Origin: Aestuariivivens sediminis
GTDB taxonomy: Bacteria; Bacteroidota; Bacteroidia; Flavobacteriales; Flavobacteriaceae
NCBI RefSeq assembly: GCF_022662105.1
Contig: NZ_JAKMCP010000001.1
Span: 868,001-932,000, forward strand
Direction: 5' to 3'
DNA: 64,000 nt
The notes under the pieces are model-generated. The model was not told the DNA's origin. It made no database searches and saw only the letters and a list, made by a program, of their open reading frames with translations. Position 1 is the first letter of the stretch, and each line of letters opens with the position of its first letter. The translations under genes were made by a program, and so were the position numbers. This document shows positions 42,552-49,619 of the stretch, piece after piece.

Positions 42552-43688
42552 TTATTTTTCATTCTTATAATCACTGAGCAATTCGCGCCCTGTAAAGTCA
42601 TATTGATCCCATTTTGGTAAGGGGTGAAAATGTCCGGCCTGAACATCCCTGAACATTCTTTCAATAGCATGAGATTTATAGAAGCTCTGGCCTCCAATCA
42701 TATCCATGCATTGGTTAACCGTCGATATACAGGCCTCTGTTACATTCGTTTTCAAGCTTAAAATATCGATGGTCGTTTTATGGTTTGGTTCGAAAAGCAG
42801 GTCCCCAGCCTGTTGCACCATATACTGCCATTGCGTCCAGGCCATTATGAGTGCGTTATAAGCTTTTCCTACGATATAGTTGAGGTGCTTTTGATTTCTG
42901 GAATACGTTTTACCTATCCCAACGGCATCATGAAACGCACTTTCCGCGATACCAACATAGGCGGACATGATAAGCGGCATGGCCACTGGTATCACAACAT
43001 TCCATACCCCATGGTATGCCCCCTGAGGCCTTTGTAATGAAATGGCCGAATCCGGAATAAATACCTTATCGAAAACAAGGGTCTGCGATCCGGTGGAACG
43101 CATACCCATAACATCCCAATCATCCAAAATATTAACACCGAATGAATTGGTTGGAACCCCAAAATGAAATACCGAATTGCCTTTATCTGCATCTTGGTAA
43201 ATACCACTGGTAACGATCAGGTCGCCGGCAATGGACTGAGAGGCAAAATGTTTTTTACCTGAAAATAAATAGCCTCCCTCTGTCTTTATTAAAGACCCAT
43301 TAGAACTGAGCCAATCCCTGGCACCCGTACTGACAAGAACCAGTTGGTGTTTAGCGACATTCTTGAGTAACACCTTATTGGATCCATCCTGGTAATATTT
43401 CCATACACTGGCTGCTATTAAATGCTGGTGCATGGATAGTGCTAAAGCCGTAGAACCACATGATTTACCAATAATTTTTAGGCATTCACATATGTCCTTG
43501 TAGCTTACGCCCCTGCCTCCCAATGCCTTGGGAATCATTGCAGAAAAATAGTGGTGCTCTTTTAAGACCTCATAATTGTCGTAAACAAAACCACCGTTGT
43601 CGTCATGCGCTTTAGCATTTTCTTTAAATGCTGTTGCTAAGCGCTCCGTTAAAGCAACCCATGAAATATCTGTTTTCTCCTTAAACAT
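42552..43688 (-). CDS. acyl-CoA dehydrogenase-like flavoprotein (monooxygenase-type C-terminus)
   Basis: Started at the Met at 43688 (378 residues); the longer frame adds 14 odd residues. Acyl-CoA dehydrogenase N-, middle and C-domains are visible: MIPKALGGRGVSYKDIC, STALALSMHQHL, GARDWLSSNGSL, GMRSTGSQTLVFDKVFIPD and MDMIGGQSFYKSHAIERMFRDVQAGHFHPLP. The usual catalytic Glu of the C-terminal YEGT-type loop is not present, being replaced by the HPLPKWDQYDFTGR region. That pattern is seen in flavin monooxygenase-like members such as DszC. The substrate is unknown. First gene of the operon that leads to the RND exporter. Confidence 0.82.
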   Translation of the reverse strand: MFKEKTDISWVALTERLATAFKENAKAHDDNGGFVYDNYEVLKEHHYFSAMIPKALGGRGVSYKDICECLKIIGKSCGSTALALSMHQHLIAASVWKYYQDGSNKVLLKNVAKHQLVLVSTGARDWLSSNGSLIKTEGGYLFSGKKHFASQSIAGDLIVTSGIYQDADKGNSVFHFGVPTNSFGVNILDDWDVMGMRSTGSQTLVFDKVFIPDSAISLQRPQGAYHGVWNVVIPVAMPLIMSAYVGIAESAFHDAVGIGKTYSRNQKHLNYIVGKAYNALIMAWTQWQYMVQQAGDLLFEPNHKTTIDILSLKTNVTEACISTVNQCMDMIGGQSFYKSHAIERMFRDVQAGHFHPLPKWDQYDFTGRELLSDYKNEK

Positions 43689-43801
43689 GATTGAACTCTT
43701 TTTAAGTTTCCATGCAAAGGAATAGAACAAATAGGGTTTAGATTATTCAATAAAGTCCAATGTTTTGACTGAGAAGTCCAGACTAGTAAACTGAAGGTTT
43801 T

Positions 43802-44665
43802 TTAGTTTGTTTTCCTAAAGGAAGAAGGTGTTGTACCGTATTTTGATTTAAAAGCTCTGCTAAAATGAGCAACACTTTCAAACCCGCAATCGTACGCAAT
43901 TTGAGAAATCGTATCTAAATTATATGTTAAGAGTTCGGCTGCTTTCTTCAGCCGTCTTTCAAGAATCCATTTTCCGGGACTCGTGTTATAGTGATTTTTA
44001 AAATCCCGTTTAAAACTGGACTTGCTTCTGTGACATAACTTTGCCAATTGCTCCAAACGTAAATTGTAATGAAAATTCGCTTCCATAATATTAGGAAGTG
44101 AAGGGAGGTCGCTTAGGGTGGTACTTTTTAAATAAGAAGCAATCTTAACATTATTCTTGCTGTTGGCCAGGCTTAGCAAAAGTTCCTTGGCCTTTAACTG
44201 AAGAATACTGTTCAGTGGTTTATTGGTATCGTAAAAATATCCCAATAAGGACTGAAAAAAAGATTTAAATTCAACATTTATTTTAATGCGGTCTATAATA
44301 AAGGTATCGGCCCCTTCCACATGCTTAATAGGAATATTTTTTATATCCTCTTTTAGACTTGACTTTATAATATCGTCTGAAAAGAATATCCCCAGCATAC
44401 AGAACTCTTCCTTGAAATTTTGCTTGATTATCGAAGCTCCCTTTTTAATATATATGGCTTCCCCCTTCTTGACCGCCCATTGTGACTCCTTAGTACTCCA
44501 AGTTTTTTCACCACTTAATATGTAAATAATATAATCGTACTGTGACCAGATTTCTACAGTATCCTGTTCAAGAGGGCATTTATACTCAACAAATAAGAGA
44601 TTATCGACTTCAAATTTATTGAAGACGATATCACTCCTCATGGTTTCGTAAAAGTCGTATACCAT
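43802..44665 (-). CDS. AraC-family transcriptional regulator
   Basis: A 287-residue regulator. The N-terminal cupin-like sensor (about 20-160) includes IIYILSGEKTWSTKESQWAVKKGEAIYIKKGASII. The C-terminal pair of helix-turn-helices includes FHYNLRLEQLAKLCHRSKSSFKRDFKNHYNTSPGKWI and ISQIAYDCGFESVAHFSRAFKSKYGTTPSSF. It lies 113 bp upstream of the flavoprotein gene on the same strand and is the natural candidate to control the 36.3-43.7 kb operon, probably in response to a small ligand. Confidence 0.92.
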   Translation of the reverse strand: MVYDFYETMRSDIVFNKFEVDNLLFVEYKCPLEQDTVEIWSQYDYIIYILSGEKTWSTKESQWAVKKGEAIYIKKGASIIKQNFKEEFCMLGIFFSDDIIKSSLKEDIKNIPIKHVEGADTFIIDRIKINVEFKSFFQSLLGYFYDTNKPLNSILQLKAKELLLSLANSKNNVKIASYLKSTTLSDLPSLPNIMEANFHYNLRLEQLAKLCHRSKSSFKRDFKNHYNTSPGKWILERRLKKAAELLTYNLDTISQIAYDCGFESVAHFSRAFKSKYGTTPSSFRKTN

Positions 44666-44908
44666 AACTATGTATGACAGGATCCCTCAAAATTAATTAA
44701 TTTTTACCAATTCCATCACCCATCATAAACCTGTACTATACGTTAAAGGGCATCATTCCATTAAGGAAAAGTCCAGCCCTATGATCATGCTTAAAATGAT
44801 AGTTATGCCGGGTAAAACTATAATGCTATCCGGAATGTATTTAAAAAATGGTCACCTTTAATAACCACGAAATATGAGGAATTACCAGGACTCGAACCTG
44901 GATCTAGA

Positions 44909-44936
44909 CCTGCCCGAATTGCTTCAGGAAGGCGGG
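44909..44936. repeat. 28-bp hairpin inserted in tRNA 3'-half copy
   Basis: CCTGCC at the left pairs with GGCGGG at the right around a partly complementary interior. It splits the 3' strand of the anticodon stem: the flanking TCTAGA and GTTTAGG are contiguous in the intact gene. An identical insert lies at 45002-45029. Confidence 0.85.
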
Positions 44937-45001
44937 GTTTAGGAAACTCCTATTCCCTGCCTGCCGTAGTGGCCTTACCAGGACTCGAACCTGGATCTAG
45001 A

Positions 45002-45029
45002 CCTGCCCGAATTGCTTCAGGAAGGCGGG
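45002..45029. repeat. second copy of the 28-bp hairpin insert
   Basis: Same sequence and same position inside the next tRNA 3'-half copy, 93 bp away. The pair therefore arose by tandem duplication after the insertion. Confidence 0.85.
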
Positions 45030-45127
45030 GTTTAGGAAACTCCTATTCCCTGCCTGCCGTAGTGGCCTTACCAGGACTCGAACCTGGATCTAGAGTTTAG
45101 GAAACTCCTATTCCCTGCCTGCCGTAG

Positions 45128-45199
45128 TGGCCTTACCAGGACTCGAACCTGGATCTAGAGTTTAGGAAACTCCTATTCTATCCCTTGAACTATAAGGCC
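45128..45199 (-). tRNA. tRNA-Arg (anticodon CCT)
   Basis: A 72-nt cloverleaf folds cleanly on the minus strand. Acceptor stem GGCCTTA/TAAGGCC with discriminator A; D stem GTTC/GAAT with GG in the loop; anticodon stem GGAGT/ACTCT with loop TTCCTAA (anticodon CCT at 34-36); T stem CCAGG/CCTGG with loop TTCGAGT. CCA is not encoded. This is the only intact tRNA in the array of partial copies on either side. Confidence 0.95.
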
Positions 45200-45335
45200 A
45201 TTTGTTTGGCACGCAGGCAGGTATCCCTTGAACTATAAGGCCATTTGTTTGGCACGCAGGCAGGTATCCCTTGAACTATAAGGCCATTTGTTTGGCACGC
45301 AGGCAGGTATCCCTTGAACTATAGAGCCATAAATG
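45200..45335 (-). repeat. three extra copies of the tRNA-Arg 5' half
   Basis: The acceptor plus D-arm portion recurs (TATCCCTTGAACTATA on the plus strand at 45222, 45265 and 45308, with the intact gene at 45179), an exact period of 43 bp. Units are joined by a TTTGTTTGGCACGCAGGCAGG linker. The outermost copy reads ATAGAGCCA instead of ATAAGGCCA. No unit contains an anticodon. Confidence 0.9.
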
Positions 45336-45737
45336 GCGTCAGGCAGGCGGGGGTCCCATAGTCGCTATGCCCAATGGGTAGCAAACATACTAAACTTGGA
45401 TAACATAAAAAAGCTTAAATAAGTCGATGTTAAGGCATTCTATTGTGCTTCCCCCCTTATCTATGGTATTGAACAGATATGCAGCATGACCCGGATATTA
45501 AAGCAAAGGCATTTCAATAAGGAGATATAAAGCATATAATAGGTACGAAACCCCTATAAACTCACGGTGTTTGCTGCCTTTCCCGGAACTATACGAATCC
45601 CCTGTTTGAATTTTCCTGTACTTCTGTAGCAATCCTATCAAAATTTACTATCTTTAAATGCAACTTTGAGATCTCATGCATTTATGTATATTCATATATT
45701 ATATATATCACCTTCTAACCCATTAAATTATTGACTT
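45336..45737. other. intergenic region right of the tRNA array
   Basis: About 400 bp. The left end carries a CAGGCAGGCGGGGG remnant like the array linkers. The rest is AT-rich with no credible ORF. A TATCTTTA box near 45650 could serve the small downstream gene. Confidence 0.4.
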
Positions 45738-45926
45738 ATGGATTTCAAGAAAACCATTATTAATCTTTTCACTTGCCTTATTCTATCGCCTATTATTGTT
45801 TATATCATTTTAGGTATTGCCAGCTTAGCGGGATCGACTTACGAGATGTCGCACGGAGAAACCTGGATCATTTGGCTGCTTATGGCCATAATGATCAATC
45901 TATCGATTTCGAAGAAATCAACCTGA
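45738..45926 (+). CDS. small membrane protein, unknown
   Basis: A 62-residue ORF with two hydrophobic segments (LFTCLILSPIIVYIILGIASL and WIIWLLMAIMINLSI), a Lys at each end and a short polar turn. A terminator-like hairpin follows 64 bp later, which supports transcription here. No homologue is recognised, so it could also be a chance ORF. Confidence 0.45.
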   Translation: MDFKKTIINLFTCLILSPIIVYIILGIASLAGSTYEMSHGETWIIWLLMAIMINLSISKKST

Positions 45927-45989
45927 ATACGGAGACAGCCTATTTATTAGGCAGCTATCGTGTGGAAGGATTCCATTTTAATCACACCC

Positions 45990-46016
45990 AAAACCACTTC
46001 ATTGGAGTGGTTTTTT
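45990..46016 (+). terminator. rho-independent terminator
   Basis: AAACCACT, loop TCATTGG, AGTGGTTTTTT: a stable stem followed by a T run, 64 bp after the small ORF. Confidence 0.75.
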
Positions 46017-46265
46017 AGTGCTCTTCCGCTTTGGATCCAAACAGGTGAACCTCAGTAGTTCGCCAAAAAAACATATTTAGCGTGCTTTTAGTTGCCATTG
46101 AGGGCCCGATGTTTAAATTAGGACAACAACATCGGGAAATGGTTACAGCCTTTCCTTTTGTTGAAGAATTAAAATCACCCTTTATCATTATACACGCGGA
46201 GTTCCGGCACAATAAGGCTGTTCCATATAATATGGCAGAATTATAATTTATGACTTCTCATACCC
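46017..46265. other. intergenic, no recognisable gene
   Basis: About 250 bp between the terminator and the foldback element. Short open stretches are present in several frames but none has a start, length or composition that supports a gene. Confidence 0.4.
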
Positions 46266-46476
46266 ATTGGCATTTTGAATAAAATTTGTCAACCCGCCTG
46301 ACCGGACGGGTAGCTTCGAGTGAATTTATGGAATGAAATAAATTAGCCTGCCTGCCTTTGGTAGGTATGGAAAATCCCATTTTTGTTCTTAAACTCGTGT
46401 TCGCGATACCATTTTCTATGGAAAATCACTCCACCTGACATTCATTTGTAACCTATAAATCAAAATACACAACGCG
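46266..46476. repeat. dispersed foldback element, copy 1
   Basis: Shares long identity with 61095-61310, including a 41-bp exact match beginning GCATTTTGAATAAAATTTG at 46270 and a right end AAATACACAACGCG. It contains a CCCGCCT...CGGGTAG hairpin and a GCCTGCCTTTGGTAGG hairpin. The terminal inverted repeats are less well kept than in copy 2. It lies just upstream of mltF. Confidence 0.85.
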
Positions 46477-46528
46477 TTTCTCATTTATTTATGTATCTTA
46501 TTCACATTCAATTTATAAAACGCCTATA

Positions 46529-48221: not shown

Positions 48222-49619
48222 CTACTTCACAAGTAAGAATTTAAAGGTAACCGGGGTTTGCAAGGTGACCGGGTTATTTTTTGGATTAAACAAGATCACC
48301 TGAACATTTGCCTGTCCATTACCATCAATACTTTGCAGATAGACTGATAATATACATCCCTGTAAATCAATATCGGCCGACGCCAGAAAAATATCCCCCA
48401 TTTCAAAAGGTTTGTCCGCCGGAGGATCGACCTTCAGACTATTGGGTGAATACCAGGCAGTATTAGGCCCAATAACGCCGTTACTTCCAACAGGAATATT
48501 AAAAGAGCCATCGGCACTGGTGGAAACAGGTGGTGAGATAATGGTAACATTACCCGGGGTGTTTTCAATTACAATGCCTGTGCCCGCAGTAAGTGTTGTT
48601 AAATTGAAGGTATTGGTCGTGCCATCTCCAATTAAAATTTCACCATCTGCAACAGCAGAGGCATCGAGACCTGTACCTCCATTTTCAAGCGGTAAAATAT
48701 CGGTCACCTTGGTGGTTAGGTTTATCGTATTGTTCGCAATATCTTCATTAAGAATGGTTTCATTTAAGATCTCAGAGGTCTCCACAGCACCCTCAGCAAT
48801 ATCTTCGGCCAGAATGGTTTCATTTAAAATCTCTGAGGTCTCCACAGCACCCTCAGCAATATCTTCGGCCAGAATGGTTTCATTTAAAATCTCTGAGGTC
48901 TCCACAGCCCCCTCGGCAATATCTTCAGCCAGAATGGTTTCATTTAAAATCTCTGAAGTTTCAACCGCACCCTCCGCAATATCTTCAGCCAGAATGGTTT
49001 CATTTAAAATCTCTGAGGTCTCCACAGCACCCTCAGCAATATCTTCAGCCAGAATGGTTTCATTTAAAATCTCTGAAGTTTCAACCGCACCCTCCGCAAT
49101 ATCCTCGGCAAGGATTTCTTCATTGAGTATTTTTTCTGTTGTAATGGCATCATCGGCAATATCGTCGGTATAAAAAGCATAAGGCACTGCCATAAATTTC
49201 TGATTGCTCACTATTTTGTAATTACCGTCATTTTTGGTGGATATTTCCACCTTTAAGAACTGATCTGCGTCAATCCAGGGAATATCCAGTAGCCTTGAAT
49301 AGGTTGAACTGGACACCACCCCTTTTCCTATAACCAGGTTAAACAGACCATAGGCATCTGTGGTGGTCACATGTGTTTCTTCCCACTGGACTGCTCCATC
49401 CAGCCCTTTTGTAATGGTGAACCGCACGCCAATTTCCCGATTATACAGTGGTTTTGCTTCTATATCGAGACCCACAATCTCTTGCGTTTCATCGTTAAGG
49501 GCGACAGCTTGATAATATATGCCGTCCAGATTCCCTATGCGCTGTGCCGAAACAAAATTAACAGCGATACTAAAAATTACGATTAATAAAATATATTTAA
49601 ATTTTTTCATGACAATCAA
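48222..49619 (-). CDS. secreted repeat protein (ILNETILAEDIAEGAVETSE repeats)
   Basis: A 465-residue protein with a signal peptide (IVIFSIAVNFVSA). An N-terminal domain (about 30-150) of IYYQAVALND, YNREIGVRFTITKGLDG and GLFNLVIGKG type is followed by six 20-residue repeats (60-bp DNA units) at about 155-280. A beta-rich C-terminal domain comes last. Repeats of the form I-x-x-x-T-I-x-x-x-D-I-A-x-G-A resemble stalk segments of trimeric fibres and adhesins. It is the last of three co-oriented surface genes (14-bp gap to the beta-barrel gene). Function unknown. Confidence 0.8.
   Translation of the reverse strand: MIVMKKFKYILLIVIFSIAVNFVSAQRIGNLDGIYYQAVALNDETQEIVGLDIEAKPLYNREIGVRFTITKGLDGAVQWEETHVTTTDAYGLFNLVIGKGVVSSSTYSRLLDIPWIDADQFLKVEISTKNDGNYKIVSNQKFMAVPYAFYTDDIADDAITTEKILNEEILAEDIAEGAVETSEILNETILAEDIAEGAVETSEILNETILAEDIAEGAVETSEILNETILAEDIAEGAVETSEILNETILAEDIAEGAVETSEILNETILAEDIAEGAVETSEILNETILNEDIANNTINLTTKVTDILPLENGGTGLDASAVADGEILIGDGTTNTFNLTTLTAGTGIVIENTPGNVTIISPPVSTSADGSFNIPVGSNGVIGPNTAWYSPNSLKVDPPADKPFEMGDIFLASADIDLQGCILSVYLQSIDGNGQANVQVILFNPKNNPVTLQTPVTFKFLLVK
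48752..49131 (-). repeat. 60-bp tandem coding repeats
   Basis: Six units of exactly 60 bp. Two adjacent units (48781-48840 and 48841-48900) are base-for-base identical. Two alternative junction sequences (GAGGTCTCCACAGC and GAAGTTTCAACCGC) recur at 120-bp spacing, which indicates higher-order duplication or gene conversion. Confidence 0.9.

Follow-up and report, generated by a model that had tools for sequence, protein, structure and literature searches.

REP/BIME palindromic repeats, which are moved by RAYT, have short GC-rich inverted arms and create no target duplication. Integrative elements with a tRNA gene as attB carry their own integrase, and their insertion restores one end of the tRNA. 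SegB, a GIY-YIG enzyme, cuts inside tRNA genes and by way of recombination amplifies a tRNA segment (PMC13096335). The pieces of split and intron-containing archaeal tRNAs are joined by splicing (PMC4090602).

In the genome of Aestuariivivens sediminis (G000) we analyzed a window, that is, the whole stretch of 64,000 nucleotides, in which one intact tRNA-Arg(CCT) gene is surrounded by pieces of further copies. The best explanation as a whole, to which we assign a probability of about 0.55, is that the array arose by nested insertions of a small cassette and by recursive, homing-like deepening; nested insertion as the origin is well supported, and the homing step for the deeper levels is held with moderate confidence. 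The array is the deepest that we found of a recurrent and apparently undescribed class of self-nesting tRNA cassettes.

Layout of the array and its cassette unit

In an exact parse of the minus strand the array reads 5h0-L-5h-L-5h-L-(intact tRNA-Arg(CCT))-M-3h-M-3h(P)-M-3h0(P), where (P) marks a piece that holds a 28-bp palindrome, P, in the anticodon stem. The array that a preliminary description had reported from the letters of this DNA is real and symmetric in its order, with pieces at 44883-45347; the parse agrees with the three extra 5' and three extra 3' pieces counted there, and repeat comparison recovered the reported periods of 43 bp (45179-45330), 65 bp (45030-45178) and 93 bp (44882-45094). 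The features, all on the minus strand and all from the exact parse unless stated otherwise, are as follows.

45382..45389, minus strand: TATGTTTG, promoter-like (TAnnTTTG), upstream of the whole array and also upstream in the sister species G003 (motif match)
45329..45347, minus strand: L0, older left arm CCTGCCTGACGCCATTTAT (sequence reading)
45308..45328, minus strand: 5h0, 5' piece of the outermost tRNA, with GGCTCTA acceptor
45286..45307, minus strand: L arm of cassette 1
45265..45285, minus strand: 5h1, 5' piece of the cassette 1 tRNA
45243..45264, minus strand: L arm of cassette 2
45222..45242, minus strand: 5h2, 5' piece of the cassette 2 tRNA
45200..45221, minus strand: L arm of cassette 3
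45128..45199, minus strand: innermost, intact tRNA-Arg(CCT) of cassette 3 (ARAGORN at 45127-45199, Rfam and parse)
45114..45127, minus strand: M arm of cassette 3
45063..45113, minus strand: 3h2, 3' piece of the cassette 2 tRNA
45049..45062, minus strand: M arm of cassette 2
44970..45048, minus strand: 3h1(P), 3' piece of the cassette 1 tRNA, split by P (45002-45029)
44956..44969, minus strand: M arm of cassette 1
44883..44955, minus strand: 3h0(P), truncated 3' piece of the outermost tRNA, with the same P (44909-44936) (parse)

The only tRNA that ARAGORN finds in the window is tRNA-Arg(cct), on the minus strand at 45127-45199; it scores 65.1 bits against the Rfam tRNA family, which confirms the one intact gene in the middle. 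Copies of the repeated units are 97-100% identical over the 66-nt reference and 100% identical over the 93-nt pair. The pieces had been called tRNA halves, which is not accurate, as the break lies in the D-loop between GGATA and GAATAG: the 5' pieces are 21 nt long and end in GGATA, and the full 3' pieces are 51 nt long and begin with GAATAG. The outermost pair differs from the others, with an acceptor strand of GGCTCTA in 5h0 vs GGCCTTA elsewhere and a truncated 3h0 (GGTAATTCC); this pair is the older host tRNA.

The three left linkers (L, 22 nt) are identical to one another, as are the three right linkers (M, 14 nt). Since L starts with CCTGCCTGC, a linker whose importance had been proposed before and is borne out here, and M finishes with GCAGGCAGG, L and M are the two arms of one element. 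This element is a 108-bp cassette made of the L arm, the tRNA and the M arm, with ends CCTGCCTG and CAGGCAGG; no endonuclease gene was found in its 108 bp, the content being L, tRNA and M only. A model of three cassettes, each inside the D-loop of the next-outer copy, reproduces 324 of 324 bp when P is set aside, and with P left in it matches 278 bp, up to the first P. The units of the array, in agreement with the preliminary description, are thus a 5' piece with L and M with a 3' piece around one intact gene and not whole genes arranged head to tail. The window contains 8 copies of the motif CCTGCCTGM where 0.48 are expected, a count that none of 100 shuffles reached, and 4 copies of TTCGAGTCC where 0.22 are expected; these enrichments are not due to chance.

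The L and M arms pair over 9 bp in the G000 array, and pairing of 9-10 bp was found in 10 of 13 arm pairs; at offset 0 just 2 bp pair between the arms of L139, L166 and L215, with offset pairing seen by eye only. The array alone folds strongly (z -3.89), which says little because of the repeats. A modelled nested cloverleaf with three added levels is stable but is not the minimum (-131.4 vs -156.8 kcal/mol); the minimum fold retains 144 of 222 nested paired bases, but 42 of 42 of the innermost tRNA. At E<=1 an Rfam search of 43500-46500 returned the tRNA and two weak, unlikely matches, and no intron family. A further inverted repeat, CCTACC..GGCAGG, lies at 46323-46365, about 1 kb upstream of the array, and the predicted protein at 48222-49619 of the window carries a tandem repeat of about 20 residues (AEDIAEGAVETSEILNETIL).

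The G000 assembly is a draft of 13 contigs in which 34 tRNAs were found, and the tRNA-Arg(CCT) of the array is the only CCT among the 30 of these 34 that were read with their anticodon; the four tRNAs without a locus of their own are C7:690666, C6:413540, C13:44875 and C7:321789, two of which were seen as neighbors (Tyr, Leu). The number of contigs and the presence of repeats of up to 93 bp would allow for an assembly artefact, in which repeat handling inflated a single tRNA gene. However, the levels differ from each other in the 5h0 acceptor, in P and in the truncated 3h0, and a like architecture occurs in other assemblies, including G394, a single-contig genome of another genus with a two-level array of its own, so we consider an artefact extremely unlikely.

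Recurrence of the cassettes and origin of the first nesting

When 397 family genomes were searched at the DNA level with a cassette query of 109 bp, full-length matches (108-109/109) were found in five, G000, G394, G002, G402 and G146, and all five cassettes lie within another tRNA-Arg gene. The insertion site is the anticodon arm in G394, G146 and G402. As in endonuclease-encoding homing elements, the insertion sites in a conserved gene are exact, either between GGATA and GAA (D-loop) or between GAAG and TTTC, and an empty allele exists in a relative, G421. The 5'-junction pattern occurs in 4 of the 397 genomes (three times in G000, and in G002, G394 and G146).

A wider contig scan for AGTTCWANGGATA-N(0-12)-CCYGCCYG returned at least 118 loci, a sample biased by its pattern to tRNA-Arg D-loops, with other targets outside it. 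Among the matches listed, the motif immediately follows GGATA at 89 of 127 parsed places. Among the same matches, 93 places (84 loci) have a gap of 0 or 9; 21 of them hold a nested tRNA, 32 a GIY-YIG-like ORF and an intact tRNA-Arg within 900 bases, 20 an intact tRNA-Arg without such an ORF, one the ORF without a tRNA, and 19 none of these. A few pattern places probably match by chance, L149 and L174 among them. Of 204 distinct tRNAs across all loci collected, 22 are tRNA-Arg between such arms, 12 from Bacteroidota (including G000 and G003), nine from Patescibacteria and one unassigned. Read by eye, 21 of the 22 lie directly 3' of the 5' piece of another tRNA-Arg, G003 being the exception, and the 3' piece restarts after the arm in 19 of the 21; it does not in L131, and L133, which runs off its contig, is not counted among the 19. 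Inner and outer anticodons, also read by eye, are the same in 15 of 18 readable loci and one base apart in L077, L212 and L220. At L105, L144, L152 and L160, tRNA-Arg copies carry palindromes in both the D-loop and the T-loop.

Each level could represent a fresh transposition of a non-autonomous transposon with BIME-like palindromic arms, moved by a Y1/RAYT or other transposase. The palindromic arms and the junctions without gain or loss of bases speak for this, as does the 20-bp palindrome CCTGCCTGCCGGCAGGCAGG, which occurs plain in 20 of 120 family genomes and, read by eye, lies in tRNA or tRNA-derived sequence at 5 of 20 loci (L264, L267, L273, L275 and L276), a share that looks far above the tRNA share of the genome. 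Y1_Tnp matches were found in the nested genomes G002, where the best one has internal stop codons, and G402. However, all five full-length cassettes lie inside tRNA genes, and the search for Y1_Tnp (PF01797) in seven genomes gave no match in the other five (G000, G001, G003, G394 and G146). Y1/RAYT was considered as the mover in G000 and rejected, there being no Y1 match in that genome. Transposition at every level is in our judgment decidedly improbable.

We compared inner and outer tRNAs at 16 loci, 14 of which have a readable outer tRNA. At those 14 loci the inner tRNA is 0.68-0.89 identical to its own outer tRNA. In Bacteroidota, in 9 of 9 cases, the inner tRNA is nearer to an inner tRNA from a different locus than to the outer tRNA that encloses it; in Patescibacteria the same holds for three of five (L128, L142 and L217, two by a small margin), and in the other two (L175 and L216) the inner tRNA is nearer to its own outer one. 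Since inner tRNAs are usually unlike their own outer tRNAs, the first nesting is read as an insertion. Slippage from inside the gene, which the preliminary description had proposed, is not supported as the origin; slippage or unequal exchange may have added levels 2 and 3 in G000.

One and the same inner 72-mer is shared by G402, G146, L133 and L212 (Gramella sp. AN32). The neighborhoods compared span 55 kb each in G146, G402 and G394, 5 kb in L133 and 8 kb in L212. G146 has six gene matches with L133 (within 27 kb) and seven with G394, and G247 has seven with G402, two with L133 and two with G394; L212 (8 kb, 7 ORFs) has none with the other three identical-inner loci at the cut-off used. The neighborhoods of these four loci are therefore not all unrelated, and given the shared neighbor genes, common descent of the nested locus can explain part of the inner-tRNA identity. 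Movement of the cassette between genera is likely.

An empty-site series is found in genus g221 (four genomes), where the tRNA at the same chromosomal place is uninterrupted in G421, nested at one level in G422 and at two levels in G394; in G227 the same place holds the inner-type tRNA only. About 980 bp upstream align by BLASTN between G421 and the other g221 genomes at 74.6-75.0%, and the G394-G421 alignment stops at G421 base 1530 (tRNA base 30) and restarts at 1530 past the insert. The outer tRNAs of G422 and G394 have no bases gained or lost at the junction relative to G421, and both show small T-arm deletions. Another candidate for the empty site, G243, was rejected; the tail of a GIY-YIG gene lies directly upstream of its tRNA, and G421 was therefore taken as the empty site. 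Inner tRNAs unlike their own outer ones, together with an uninterrupted site in a syntenic relative, fit insertion of a separate cassette.

Closer to G000, the syntenic place in the sister species G003 holds just one tRNA; the MltF-like neighbor there is 85-86% identical. The acceptor of this tRNA is as in 5h0, and the tRNA lies between CCTGCCTGTGG... and ...GGCGGGCAGG, followed by GAATAG; we infer that it is the older cassette, perhaps on the remnant of a still older host. In G002 a single level occupies the D-loop site used in G000, but the arms and the outer tRNA are different; the G002 locus is that of Aestuariivivens insulae AH-MY3 (L155), six ORFs being 100% identical.

Deepening of the array and a candidate cutter

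We propose that a cassette consisting of a GC-rich L arm, a complete tRNA-Arg(CCT) without a recognizable promoter of its own and a complementary M arm would insert into tRNA-Arg genes whose anticodon is identical or almost identical to its own, with no bases gained or lost at the junction. The insertion would break the host tRNA gene and bring a working substitute driven by the host tRNA promoter; because the insert supplies this substitute, insertion into a like tRNA would be tolerated. The motif TAnnTTTG, which we take to be a Bacteroidota promoter motif, lies within 60 nt upstream of the outermost copy at 9 of 13 loci (not in G002, G146, L166 and L215) and in none of 14 L arms, so that the inner tRNA is probably transcribed from the promoter of the host tRNA. 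Half-tRNA transcripts, an outcome raised earlier, are possible as putative by-products of the array.

Since the cassette contains an intact copy of its own target, it would be open to repeated insertion. A break in the innermost D-loop may be repaired with the interrupted outer copy on the sister chromosome as the template, and each repair would copy in L-tRNA-M, adding one 5' piece with L on the left and one M with a 3' piece on the right. In this break-and-copy scheme, both the repair step and the cutting by a small GIY-YIG endonuclease are inferred. Break-and-copy predicts equal depth on the left and right and co-conversion of near markers. Left and right depths are 3 and 3 in G000 and 2 and 2 in G394, the two multi-level arrays with both sides kept on which the equal-depth argument rests; at L131 two pieces remain on the left, and the right side is damaged. 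P is present in 3h0 and 3h1 and in none of the pieces deeper inside, in keeping with co-conversion of a nearby marker, but an identical P in both pieces requires exchange or a second identical insertion, and this counts against our best explanation.

Independent unequal exchange can be regarded as the main rival for the deeper levels: a single insertion would be followed by unequal crossing-over or slippage between direct repeats, the two sides growing independently by 43-bp units on the left and 65-bp and 93-bp units on the right. All units are indeed direct repeats with 97-100% identity over the references, a single 93-bp duplication would explain P in two 3' pieces, and the single tRNA of G003 and single level of G002 are in keeping with it. 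It would, however, need four independent duplications that by chance gave equal counts on both sides here, with equal counts once more in G394, and it leaves unexplained the first nesting and the inner tRNAs unlike the outer ones. We consider it somewhat unlikely, and prefer nested insertion with homing-like deepening.

Small GIY-YIG genes beside palindrome-broken tRNA-Arg copies offer a lead as the candidate nuclease source for this deepening, SegB being a precedent both for cutting within tRNA genes and for recombinational amplification of tRNA segments (PMC13096335). GIY-YIG-like ORFs were called by regular expression, and Pfam GIY-YIG was confirmed in 5 of 5 proteins tested. They form a chromosomal element in which the 5' part of a tRNA-Arg is broken by a palindrome and both a small GIY-YIG-like ORF and an intact tRNA-Arg are present within 900 bases; L112, L114, L115, L117, L125, L126 and L130 are examples. 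Among the matches listed, the intact tRNA is CCT at 30 of the 32 places with this ORF, at 15 of them the end of the ORF lies 9 nt beyond the first base of that tRNA, and the ORF follows the tRNA at five (L119 twice, L168, L178 and L198). In genus g237 (three genomes), G402 carries its nest and three more palindromes in the same outer tRNA, and in G423 L and a broken inner 5' piece are followed first by a GIY-YIG gene and next by an intact tRNA of the outer type. No endonuclease gene was found adjoining the G000 array; the clearest small GIY-YIG gene of that genome is elsewhere, at the end of contig C8. Other GIY-YIG genes lie near genes for tRNA-Arg(TCG) (L251), tRNA-Pro(GGG) (L254) and tRNA-Leu(CAA) (L238/L252); by eye, a partial tRNA copy with a palindrome is present at the tRNA-Arg(TCG) and tRNA-Pro(GGG) loci, and the genes at the tRNA-Pro and tRNA-Leu loci are tandem pairs.

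Significance and comparison with described systems

Nested tRNA cassettes occur in two distant groups, Bacteroidota and Patescibacteria. Our tentative reading, to which we give slightly less than even odds, is that they are minimal mobile elements with palindromic arms and a tRNA gene as their sole cargo, which insert into loops of isoaccepting tRNA genes, substitute their own tRNA for that of the host, move between species and nest recursively. If this is true, a tRNA gene can be a selfish element, and an important gene can be broken and replaced from inside repeatedly with the tRNA kept. It would also give a direct account of tRNA gene turnover, as may be compared with G227 and its lone inner-type tRNA, and provide a testable system for the movement of palindromes and tRNA-associated GIY-YIG genes in Bacteroidota and Patescibacteria.

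No description of tRNA-in-tRNA nests or of palindromes in bacterial tRNA genes was found in the open-licence literature, and none of the known kinds considered agrees with the nests in all of its defining features. They resemble REP/BIME in their GC-rich inverted arms, in the lack of target duplication and in the dispersed plain palindromes of the same kind, but the cargo of the cassette is a tRNA gene, its target is an isoaccepting tRNA gene, and G000 has no Y1 match. With integrative elements that use tRNA genes as attB they share the tRNA gene target and the restoration of a working tRNA; unlike those elements, they place a whole tRNA in the middle of the broken one and do not rebuild one end.

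For free GIY-YIG homing endonucleases of the SegB type, and for the tRNA amplification that SegB drives in phage T6, tRNA genes are likewise both cutting site and cargo, and the likeness extends to copies gained by recombination after a break and to GIY-YIG genes that adjoin tRNA genes (PMC13096335). The differences are that our cassette has no endonuclease gene, that it grows by nesting and not by repeats of a whole segment, and that it occurs in chromosomes of Bacteroidota and Patescibacteria instead of a phage (PMC13096335). Split and intron-containing archaeal tRNAs likewise have complementary flanks and, in some cases, breaks in the anticodon arm (30/31) (PMC4090602); the nests, by contrast, provide an intact tRNA from within, and the outermost copy of the G000 array has decayed.
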